64,000 nucleotides of DNA from Candidatus Aquicultor sp. GTDB taxonomy: Bacteria; Actinomycetota; Aquicultoria; Aquicultorales; Aquicultoraceae. The position numbers and the translations under genes are program-made. The stretch is taken from the NCBI GenBank assembly GCA_036504445.1, contig DASXVE010000025.1, forward strand, positions 1 to 64,000, in the 5' to 3' direction. Shown one piece after another: positions 32,593-37,828 of this stretch. Below the pieces are notes generated by a model, which did no database searches, had not been told where the DNA came from, and saw only the letters and a list, made by a program, of their open reading frames with translations. The stretch's first letter is position 1. Each line of letters opens with the position of its first letter.

Positions 32593-33609
32593 CTACTCGC
32601 CGACCAACCTTGCGATTATCTTGACGGCCTCAGCGCGTGTTGCCGTATTTGCGGGTCTGAACGTCCCGTCGGCGTATCCGCTGACGATTCCCGCCTTAAC
32701 ACAGGCGGTAATGTAGTCGCTAGCCCAGTTCTTATTGATATCTTTCAGCGAGCTGGTGCCCGGTGAGAGACCTAATACTTCGGCGATTACCTTGGTAATC
32801 TCTGCTCTGGTTATTTTTTTATTGGGACCGAACGTTCCATCCGTATAGCCCGTGATAACGCCCCGGGACTTAGCGGTTTCGATATAACGGTACGCCCAGT
32901 TGTCGTAAGGAACATCGCTGAAGGATGCCTTTGCCGGGTCATCCAGCATGTAATCCATCGCGAAGCAGACCATCTTGGCGAATTCAGCCCGCGTTACCGA
33001 TGCGGCCGGGCTAAACGACCCGTCGCTATAACCGGAGATTATACCTTTACTAAACAACTTGGCGATGTATGCGTTCGCCCAATGTGACGCCGGGACATCG
33101 TTAAATAAAATCGGTGGCTTTTCGGCTGCCGATACCGGGCCCGTCATAGCACCTTCATTATCGGTTGTATCATAGGCCGACACCCAATAGTAATATGTGG
33201 TACCTGCTGATACATCCCGGTCGATGTAACTCAGATTGTCCTGCAACAAATTTGCGAGCTTAAACGCCTGGGTTGCATCGTTGGTCGTTGTGCGGTAGAT
33301 GCGATATCCCCAGAGGTCGTTCTCGGTATTTGCCTTCCACGAAACCGTTATCTGGCCTTCTCCTGCCGTTGCGGCGAGGCCTGTCGGCGCGGCCGGCGGT
33401 GCCGTATCCGTACTTAAAGCGCTATAACCGCTCGTTGCCATTGTCTTGGTGGTATTCCCCAACAGAACAGCATGTCCGCCATTCACTGATGATTGCACTG
33501 CGAACGCCGGCAGTACCGGCATAACGCAAAAACTTAGCATGATCGCGATACACGATATGAACGCTCTCCACAATACCGTAGGTTTGTTTGGTGTGGTATT
33601 ACTAATCAC
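32593..33609 (-). CDS. Surface protein with Fn3 and three SLH domains
   Basis: A 338-residue exported protein. Signal peptide to about 37; one fibronectin type III domain (about 70-160, PPAAPTGLAATAGEGQITVS); three SLH domains to the end (FNDVPASHWANAYIAKLF, GYSDGSFSPAASVTRAEFAK, GYTDGTFGPNKKITRAEITK, GYADGTFRPANTATRAEAVK). It resembles the C-terminal third of the large SLH protein at 21262 and likely binds the same wall polymer. Confidence 0.9.
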   Translation of the reverse strand: MISNTTPNKPTVLWRAFISCIAIMLSFCVMPVLPAFAVQSSVNGGHAVLLGNTTKTMATSGYSALSTDTAPPAAPTGLAATAGEGQITVSWKANTENDLWGYRIYRTTTNDATQAFKLANLLQDNLSYIDRDVSAGTTYYYWVSAYDTTDNEGAMTGPVSAAEKPPILFNDVPASHWANAYIAKLFSKGIISGYSDGSFSPAASVTRAEFAKMVCFAMDYMLDDPAKASFSDVPYDNWAYRYIETAKSRGVITGYTDGTFGPNKKITRAEITKVIAEVLGLSPGTSSLKDINKNWASDYITACVKAGIVSGYADGTFRPANTATRAEAVKIIARLVGE

Positions 33610-35085: not shown

Positions 35086-36549
35086 ATGTTTTCTATACCA
35101 CAAAATAACCGGCAGGCGCATAACGATTCAGGCAACACCCCCTCCAGGGTTCAAACGATGCCGCCTCGGTCGGAGCTCCCGGCGTTTCGAGTGATCAGGC
35201 GACTTGCGTTCGCCCTTATCTTCTTTGCCTTAATCGACATTCTTGTGGGACGTGCCGTAACACGTTCGATGACACCGGCGTTTGATAGCCAGTACCGTTT
35301 CAAAAGCGGCACCGATATTACGTCGCTTCGCCTCTACGTGGATCACATCGGGCAAATTCATGCTAACAACACGGACAATCGTAAAATCGTGGCGTTCTTA
35401 GGCGCATCGCCTACGTACGGCTACCGGATTAAGAATGCCCGCAACACGTACCCGTATGCGTTTGAATCTACGGTGAATACCCTGATGAGGAAGCCTGAGA
35501 AAACCCAAAAAGAAGTTTACCGGAATGCAGTGCAAACAGGTGCCGAAGCCGCTGCAGATTTAAAGCACAATATGGGTCCCCGAACTATCGGAGATATAGA
35601 TGATAAACCAGATACTAAAGTTGTTATACCCCCGGCTTATAATCAAAGCCCGAAGACAATTAAGGCCTACAACCTCGCATCGAACGGGCAGCTTGTGGCC
35701 GACCAGTATTATATCGCAAAAGCGCTCATAGGCAATGCGGACGCGTTTGTCATCCAGCTTAACTACCACACGTTTAACCCGCATGACGCAAACCGCCCGC
35801 ACATACGCTATGCCGACCTGCCCCACCGCCTCGGCGGGCCGGTCTCAAGCGGCGAGGCAAAAACGCTCGGCTCCACTAGAACGCTGGACCAGCGCGCGAA
35901 CGCGACACTCTCAAGCGCCCTATCGCGATACAGTTTCACCTTTGCCCAGCGTGACTATATTACGAGCACCGTGTTCGGCGGGTCGCCTAAAGCACTCTTT
36001 GCGCAACTTAACCCGGCCACGGCCGGTGCCGGTACGGATATAGTTGATGGTAAAACCACTCCGATTAACGGCGGTGCAGGCTCGAGCGCCGGCGGTGCTG
36101 AAGCAAACGCACTGGCCGGCGATACCGGTGAGAGCAGCAAGCCGTTTGATTCACTCTCGGCGGCGCAAAAACTTCTTATCATCAAGCGCTGCTCTCAGCT
36201 CTATGATTACAAAATCGACCCGAATGATAGCGAGATATTTTTCTTGAAGCGCCTGCTCGCGCTTCTGGCCGAACATAAAAAACGGGCGTTTTTCTTTATC
36301 GCGCCGCTTAACGTCCAGGCGCTCGACGAGTACGGCATCTATAGCTGGGATTCGTATGATGCCAACTCAAAAACCCTACGGTCAATCGTGGAGGCGCAAG
36401 GGTTCCCGTTTGCCGATGCTAACCTGGGGGCCGGCGTTGTCGCCGCCGATCAATTCTTCGATATCAGCCACACCACCGACGCCGGCGGCATTGCCTGCGG
36501 CAAGTGGATTACCGACCTAACCGCGGGCTACATCTGGGAGCGGCAATGA
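35086..36549 (+). CDS. SGNH/DltD-like acyl-handling protein
   Basis: A 487-residue protein with one N-terminal membrane helix (about 40-55, LAFALIFFALIDILVG). The rest is extracytoplasmic with an SGNH hydrolase pattern: block I FLGASPTYGYRIKN with Ser108 and block V DISH (Asp459, His462). A low-complexity Gly/Ala insertion lies at about 310-345. It is followed by an MBOAT gene with an ATGA overlap, the arrangement of DltB/DltD and AlgI/AlgX-type systems, in which the SGNH protein passes an acyl group to a wall or exopolymer. The start is uncertain; ATG 35158 is possible. Confidence 0.8.
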   Translation: MFSIPQNNRQAHNDSGNTPSRVQTMPPRSELPAFRVIRRLAFALIFFALIDILVGRAVTRSMTPAFDSQYRFKSGTDITSLRLYVDHIGQIHANNTDNRKIVAFLGASPTYGYRIKNARNTYPYAFESTVNTLMRKPEKTQKEVYRNAVQTGAEAAADLKHNMGPRTIGDIDDKPDTKVVIPPAYNQSPKTIKAYNLASNGQLVADQYYIAKALIGNADAFVIQLNYHTFNPHDANRPHIRYADLPHRLGGPVSSGEAKTLGSTRTLDQRANATLSSALSRYSFTFAQRDYITSTVFGGSPKALFAQLNPATAGAGTDIVDGKTTPINGGAGSSAGGAEANALAGDTGESSKPFDSLSAAQKLLIIKRCSQLYDYKIDPNDSEIFFLKRLLALLAEHKKRAFFFIAPLNVQALDEYGIYSWDSYDANSKTLRSIVEAQGFPFADANLGAGVVAADQFFDISHTTDAGGIACGKWITDLTAGYIWERQ

Positions 36550-37721
36550 TATTTACGAGCCTTATCTATCCCCTGTTTTTACTGGCGGCAGTCCTGGTGT
36601 TTCATCTGCTGCCGAAGCAATGGCGCCCGGTATGGATAACCCTGTGCGGCACGGCCTTTTACACCTTTTACGCCGGCGGCTTCCTGTTGTTTATCCTGGT
36701 TGAGGCGGTTGCCGTCTACGTGCTCGCACGCAACTCCGTGCGGCACGGCGGCACCTTTATCGTCGGGCTTTCGCTCGCAATCGGCGCGCTCGCCTATTAC
36801 AAATACCGGATTATGCTCTTCAACCTGGTCGCAACTCTATTTCATATGACGCCGCTTTCGGCCGAGCGCATTATCATACCGCTCGCGCTCTCGTTCTATA
36901 CGTTCGAGTTCATCCACTACCTGGCCGACATGCGAAAAGGCACCATTGCCGAGCACGGCTTTTTCGAGTTCATGGCCTTTACCATGTTCTTCCCGACCAT
37001 GGTTGCCGGGCCGATCAAACGCTTCCAGGACTTCACGCCGAAGCTTCGCGATGCGGGGCTTTCCTGGGCGCTGGTGAACGCCGGCGTGCTTCGCATAGCT
37101 GTGGGTGTTGCTAAAAAAGTGGTGATCGCCGATAGCATCAGCACCTGGGTCGACCCGTTAACGCAGGCAACCGGGCATGTGAGCGCCGGCGTTGTCGCGA
37201 TATCACTGGTTGCATATTCGGTTAAGATATACATGGACTTCTCCGGCTATTCCGATATCGCTATCGGCTCGGCGGCGCTCTTCGGCATCGCGGTGCCCGA
37301 GAACTTCTCGCTGCCCTACTTTAAAACCAGTATCGCCAACTTCTGGAAGAGCTGGCACATCTCGCTTACCAGGTGGATCATCGATTACGTTTTCATTCCA
37401 CTCGGCGGCAGCAGAAGTGGTTTTGCACTCGCCGGCATTAATACGGTGATCGCGATGTCGATCTCGGGCTTGTGGCACGGAGCCGCGCTTAACTTTGCTT
37501 TCTGGGGGCTCTACCACGGGTTATTGCTTGTGGGATATCGGGCTTACCGGGTGTTTATAAAGCCGTTGATTGCACTGCCTTCCGCATTCCGACCGGTCAC
37601 CAATATTGCAAGCGGCGTGTTTACGTTTGCACTGGTTTCCTTCGGCTGGGGGTTCTTCATTATGCCAGCCGGTAAGTTCTTAGGTATCATCACCGAAATC
37701 GCTAAGGGGGTTATTGGATGA
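36546..37721 (+). CDS. MBOAT-family O-acyltransferase (AlgI/DltB type)
   Basis: A 391-residue polytopic membrane enzyme. Segments LSFYTFEFIHYLADM, MVAGPIKRFQDF, YMDFSGYSDIAIGSAALFGI and FWKSWHISLTRW are MBOAT signatures, with catalytic His311 in SGLWHGAALNFAFW. Such proteins move an acyl group from an intracellular donor across the membrane. The start ATG 36546 overlaps the previous stop (ATGA); the longer frame from 36504 lies in the previous gene. Its stop again overlaps the next start, a 36-residue microprotein. Confidence 0.94.
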   Translation: MIFTSLIYPLFLLAAVLVFHLLPKQWRPVWITLCGTAFYTFYAGGFLLFILVEAVAVYVLARNSVRHGGTFIVGLSLAIGALAYYKYRIMLFNLVATLFHMTPLSAERIIIPLALSFYTFEFIHYLADMRKGTIAEHGFFEFMAFTMFFPTMVAGPIKRFQDFTPKLRDAGLSWALVNAGVLRIAVGVAKKVVIADSISTWVDPLTQATGHVSAGVVAISLVAYSVKIYMDFSGYSDIAIGSAALFGIAVPENFSLPYFKTSIANFWKSWHISLTRWIIDYVFIPLGGSRSGFALAGINTVIAMSISGLWHGAALNFAFWGLYHGLLLVGYRAYRVFIKPLIALPSAFRPVTNIASGVFTFALVSFGWGFFIMPAGKFLGIITEIAKGVIG

Positions 37722-37828
37722 GAGATATGCTTGTCGATGCCGCATACGGCCTCGTGATAGCGGCGCTTATCATGCTCATCATCATGTTCTCAAGCGGCAC
37801 CACCAAGTTTTTATACATCGACTTTTAA
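37718..37828 (+). CDS. DltX-like microprotein with C-terminal FLYIDF acyl-shuttle motif
   Basis: A 36-residue protein starting MRDMLVDAAYGLVIAALIML, i.e. a short N-terminus and one membrane helix, and ending FLYIDF. The start overlaps the MBOAT stop (ATGA). In Dlt pathways the microprotein DltX ends in a hexapeptide FxYxxF whose Tyr receives the acyl group from the MBOAT and passes it to the SGNH partner; here the motif, its extreme C-terminal place, the helix and the gene order all match. Sequence shows the motif; the acyl group and acceptor are unknown. No DltA/DltC-like activating genes are nearby, so the cargo may not be D-alanine. Confidence 0.8.
   Translation: MRDMLVDAAYGLVIAALIMLIIMFSSGTTKFLYIDF

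Follow-up and report, generated by a model that had tools for sequence, protein, structure and literature searches.

The window, a 64,000-nt stretch of contig DASXVE010000025.1 of Candidatus Aquicultor sp., carries at 35086-37828 on the forward strand a trio of genes encoding, in this order, an SGNH-type acyltransferase, an MBOAT acyltransferase and a microprotein (Table 1). An ATGA overlap is found at both the SGNH/MBOAT and the MBOAT/microprotein junction, and the coordinates and junctions agree exactly with those of an earlier, sequence-only reading, as do the residue numbers of Ser108, the DISH motif (459-462) and the WHG His311, and the single-helix ORF of 36 residues with FLYIDF as its last six. 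The anatomy of the trio is solid. An alternative, longer GTG start for the MBOAT ORF lies at 36504, while upstream of the microprotein ATG the same frame is stopped a few codons earlier.

Table 1. Features of the trio, of its surroundings and of the comparison loci
Feature	Position	Strand	Basis
SLH protein (three such domains), close to the trio	32593-33609		
SGNH-type acyltransferase, DltD-like, 487 aa	35086..36549	+	ORF, motifs, hhalign to DltD
Codon of Ser108, proposed nucleophile	35407..35409	+	sequence, GASP motif
D459-I-S-H462, proposed Asp/His of the triad	36460..36471	+	sequence, aligned with DltD Asp-x-x-His
MBOAT acyltransferase of 391 aa that lacks the C-terminal extension seen in fused MBOATs	36546..37721	+	Pfam, model, DltB match, alignment
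Codon of catalytic His311 (WHG)	37476..37478	+	invariant column in both MBOAT alignments
AAGGGGG, probable microprotein ribosome-binding site	37704..37710	+	sequence, 7 nt before ATG
Single-helix microprotein, 36 aa, proposed acyl shuttle	37718..37828	+	ORF, motif, fused-helix profile
C-terminal hexapeptide FLYIDF	37808..37825	+	sequence; motif fused in homologous MBOATs
Tyr33, proposed acyl carrier	37814-37816	+	sequence
SAR11 MBOAT without Tyr motif, with divergent microprotein	L010 4760-6317; L011 4767-6311		
FkbH-domain protein, tail-less MBOAT, SGNH-like protein and microprotein	L158 3761-8055; L159 3700-7965; L156 whole	- (L158, L159)	

The trio is flanked by divergent and convergent neighbours, with polymer genes absent alongside. 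Neither a mobile element nor a compositional island could be upheld for the region, as flanking inverted repeats were only short, imperfect matches and the GC content of the trio (0.52-0.56) is similar to that of its surroundings. A search of the 33-40 kb portion of the window returned no RNA element. In a synteny check within the same family, the flanking M28 peptidase had relatives at just 34-37% in three genomes. The trio itself is known from one genome only according to MBOAT and SGNH searches of the class and phylum, 35 further genomes of the class having yielded no such MBOAT.

Membership of the MBOAT superfamily is established by Pfam domain, invariant histidine and fold combined. The protein scores 102 bits with PF03062 (cut-off 27), and the column of His311 is invariant in alignments A1 and A2. 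An AlphaFold model computed from a 30-sequence alignment, with plasmid-record proteins left out, reached a pLDDT of 90.9, and its best match among solved structures in Foldseek was DltB (6bug_C, TM 0.79). With the DltB equivalog TIGR04091, however, the score is 172.5 bits against a cut-off of 375, which is no better than that of ordinary, PatA-like fused MBOATs (156-196), compared with 468 and 519 for two true DltBs; the MBOAT thus folds like DltB yet is not DltB. When aligned with fused MBOATs it ends approximately 80 residues early, with the invariant Phe371 and a single short helix just before its end, and the PatA-type arrangement, in which the MBOAT bears a Tyr hexapeptide on a pair of additional C-terminal helices, is absent. 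A short C-terminus without these helices is a trait common to the window MBOAT and DltB.

In PatA the Tyr of the enzyme's own C-terminal hexapeptide is auto-acetylated, PatB accepts acetyl from a FIYANF peptide, and the motif is modelled as being reached via two helices, one running out-to-in and the other in-to-out (PMC12148441). The same 2025 paper describes MBOAT/SGNH pathways other than Dlt as being without a DltX-like microprotein (PMC12148441). Surveys comprised the MBOAT ORFs of the window's phylum, plasmid records and a second survey. The first of these contained 76 non-DltB MBOATs whose own C-terminal extension bears a Tyr motif, 67 in the standard pattern and 9 in variants such as MYAQF, along with 7 DltBs, and the sole exception inside the phylum was P0001. 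Plasmid records contributed 14 non-Dlt MBOATs, mainly of other phyla, and every one was fused. Across these approximately 90 proteins the fused tail extends the C-terminus by about 80 residues, and nearly all complete non-Dlt MBOATs of the second survey were fused as well. The sequence-only reading had described the motif as fused to the MBOAT elsewhere; free-standing microproteins also occur in the SAR11 and FkbH sets described below. It had also named homologous loci devoid of the microprotein or its Tyr as evidence against the shuttle; this refutation does not take hold, the homologous MBOATs retaining the Tyr in fused form. A group of MBOATs of 529-557 aa at L091, L050, L093, L095, L051, L094, L092 and L096 have the motif without its leading Phe, ending in PMYAQF, PIYAQF or similar.

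The microprotein, MRDMLVDAAYGLVIAALIMLIIMFSSGTTKFLYIDF (36 aa), has its hydrophobic stretch at residues 5-22 and ends in FLYIDF, a separate one-helix microprotein with a C-terminal FxYxxF being likewise a component of Dlt; unlike the Dlt component, it is recognised by no Pfam or NCBIfam model. Alone among the 941 window ORFs of at least 20 aa it terminates in F.Y..F, for which Markov-shuffled windows give an expectation of 0.03 per 64 kb. In addition, a helix profile made from the 34 C-terminal residues of each of 78 fused MBOATs and run against the same 941 ORFs placed it at the top (E 0.015). With the six motif residues cut it was still first, at E 0.023 against 0.71 for the next, a signal that is weak in absolute terms and independent of the motif. 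That a protein of 36 aa without relatives might be a chance ORF, or merely a structural or regulatory subunit beside an MBOAT that acylates another acceptor directly, appears very improbable in view of this profile rank and of a motif situated at the exact C-terminus, as in shuttle peptides; moreover, analogous separate microproteins exist in other lineages, one pair of which is under purifying selection. At this locus the fused helix is replaced by the microprotein, which by sequence would occupy the place of the C-terminal Tyr helix of fused MBOATs and supply the missing last helix with a fresh start codon.

Alternatively, loss of one G from the GGGGG run during assembly or sequencing could have split one MBOAT that itself ended in FLYIDF. 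An additional base within 37706-37710 does join the frames (...AK-GGYW-MRDML...) with no stop, and it is in keeping with this account that nearly all relatives are fused. The joined protein, however, would still be without the first extra helix, having some 20 residues between its last core helix and the microprotein portion where fused proteins have approximately 80 extra. A single added helix should leave the motif facing the cytoplasm, if fused proteins exit via two helices in the manner of the PatA model (PMC12148441). Because joining the frames yields one added helix with the motif on the wrong side, an error of this kind is considered improbable, and the microprotein furthermore possesses its own ATG at the ATGA overlap together with a plausible ribosome-binding site.

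The SGNH protein is the weakest assignment within the trio, its family call relying on motifs and partial DltD similarity. No Pfam model matches it above cut-off, DltD (PF04914) reaching 11.4 bits against 22.7. In hhalign with the DltD profile the C-terminal 93 residues (383-475) align at E 3e-4 and a probability of 39%, and within this alignment DISH falls on the catalytic Asp-x-x-His of DltD. AlphaFold, applied to the protein alone, returned a pLDDT of 35 and was confident only for an N-terminal helix at 32-60, so that a membrane anchor is predicted at approximately these residues. Searches of phylum genomes, plasmids and the PDB returned no relatives. With a DltD-like partner of this type, the locus unites an MBOAT, an SGNH protein and a terminal Tyr motif in one operon, the broad definition of an MBOAT-SGNH acyl-shuttle system.

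Separate microproteins were also sought by re-examining, on both strands, the neighbourhood of MBOATs without a terminal Tyr motif. A contig scan with a few peptide patterns matched two SAR11 loci only, belonging to two single-cell genomes and encoding MBOATs of 436-438 aa. Their microprotein has 50 aa, one helix and the ending DPFIYFQF. As in the window, a separate one-helix protein there accompanies an MBOAT without a fused motif, whereas it lies upstream on the opposite strand, divergent and 81-88 nt from the MBOAT, and no linked SGNH partner was assigned. The SAR11 pair is under purifying selection (dN 0.22, dS 1.05), and the genes farther upstream differ between the two loci.

A further arrangement, found in three genomes that all belong to the window's phylum, resembles the trio in its non-Dlt MBOAT with a short C-terminus, its SGNH-like partner and its separate microprotein, which ends in FVYQGY, FVYQGL or FVYQGF (the microprotein start in L159 being ambiguous). 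It differs in the position of the microprotein and in an adjacent FkbH-domain protein (315, 263 and 241 bits against a cut-off of 147), which suggests a carrier-bound donor. FkbH domains are associated with the loading of glyceryl-type groups onto carrier proteins, and these sets may therefore be Dlt-like systems whose carrier-bound cargo is not D-alanine. The source genome of the window has no FkbH match, in a search that was also blank in all 14 control genomes. Taken together, these loci indicate that free-standing shuttles also serve non-Dlt MBOATs besides that of the window, the trio hence not being unique in kind. The window, SAR11 and FkbH sets contradict the statement that non-Dlt MBOAT/SGNH pathways have no DltX-like microprotein.

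The source genome is listed as 100% complete. It gave no match to DltC, while the controls B. subtilis and L. lactis were matched, and its best DltA score was 62 bits against a cut-off of 560, as expected of ordinary AMP-binding enzymes; what the sequence-only reading had noted for the vicinity, the absence of DltA and DltC, accordingly extends to the whole genome in that DltC is unmatched and DltA nowhere above cut-off. In free trees the order is DltB, FkbH group, window MBOAT and fused clade, with the window MBOAT outside the DltB clade (100/100) and basal to the fused clade with moderate support (84/83, 91/84 and 89/51), and with SAR11, at variance with the window MBOAT, inside the fused clade. 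Constrained alternatives were rejected neither in a first test round (p 0.52 and 0.43) nor in a second (p 0.155 and 0.228), the values 0.52 and 0.155 applying to a nesting of the window MBOAT with a fused group from its own phylum, and forcing SAR11 out of the fused clade cost 25.8 log units (p 0.078).

These data bear on whether the trio is a Dlt system that has diverged yet continues to D-alanylate a teichoic-acid-like polymer, its DltA and DltC being unlinked and unrecognised. The DltB-like fold, the short C-terminus, the separate microprotein and the DltD-like C-terminus of the SGNH protein would all accord with such an origin, and a tree joining the MBOAT with DltB was not rejected (AU p 0.228). 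The missing DltC match, the low DltA score, an MBOAT score within the non-Dlt range and the exclusion of this MBOAT from the DltB clade in free trees nevertheless render it a slight probability. In gene order, SGNH-MBOAT-microprotein, the trio differs from Dlt as well. Several lineages with a separate shuttle exist, and both an ancestral separation and repeated fission fit them. A wider scheme, in which free-standing shuttle microproteins would form a general, overlooked class serving several non-Dlt pathways, the window MBOAT would branch between DltB-type and fused MBOATs, the PatA-type tail would have arisen by fusion of an ancestral DltX-like microprotein, and some systems (the FkbH sets) would deliver a glyceryl-type group from a carrier to an envelope polymer, is rather doubtful as a whole.

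The position of the microprotein, the short DltB-like end of the MBOAT, the absence of DltC and the absence of a DltA above cut-off make a DltX-like shuttle outside Dlt the best reading, and the trio is very likely a non-Dlt MBOAT-SGNH cell-envelope acylation machine with a separate microprotein as Tyr33 acyl shuttle. The acyl-Tyr chemistry, topology, partner contacts and donor of such a machine are inferred from the biochemistry of PatA and DltX. By this analogy the MBOAT would pick up an acyl group on the cytoplasmic side, acetyl from acetyl-CoA being the likeliest, and His311 would move it to Tyr33 of the microprotein, the C-terminus of which would be held at the outer face. The tail would then swing to the membrane-anchored SGNH protein and hand the acyl group over to Ser108, with Asp459/His462 as the residues activating this serine, for final placement on an envelope polymer by the SGNH protein. 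PatA/PatB and other fused pairs share with the trio the sequence level of the MBOAT, a likely acyl-CoA donor, an adjoining SGNH partner and the Tyr hexapeptide, while in the trio the hexapeptide and last helix are on their own ORF and the other extra helix is absent.

The placement of an acyl-transfer machine outside the dlt operon by the sequence-only reading is supported. Its suggestion that the donor and the wall polymer acceptor may be new fared less well, as no finding points to a new donor, acetyl-CoA being the likeliest by analogy with PatA, and no evidence fixes the acceptor. The genome encodes CsaB (locus L122, 306 bits, above cut-off), and together with the protein containing three SLH domains this makes a pyruvylated secondary cell-wall polymer probable in the source organism. 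In Bacillus anthracis, PatA/PatB pairs O-acetylate a secondary cell-wall polymer of this kind. The tie between the trio and that polymer as acceptor is only circumstantial.

MBOAT-SGNH machines are themselves known, and what the best reading adds is one outside Dlt whose acyl shuttle is free-standing. The related systems suggest that the detached tail, thought to be confined to Dlt, is more widespread. If so, genomes with tail-less MBOATs deserve a cheap check for an adjacent ORF of 35-65 residues ending in FxYxxF, which would bring to light subunits of envelope-modifying enzymes that annotation has missed. With the shuttle detached, the acyl-Tyr intermediate would also be easier to isolate, and to swap between systems, than in the fused form. 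Outside these systems, a plasmid-borne dltB (L108, 3262-4670) lies directly 3' of a bactofencin A family bacteriocin gene, other dlt genes being absent from the stretch shown, and genome G416 has an unusually high number of MBOAT matches, with seven in 3.0 Mb.
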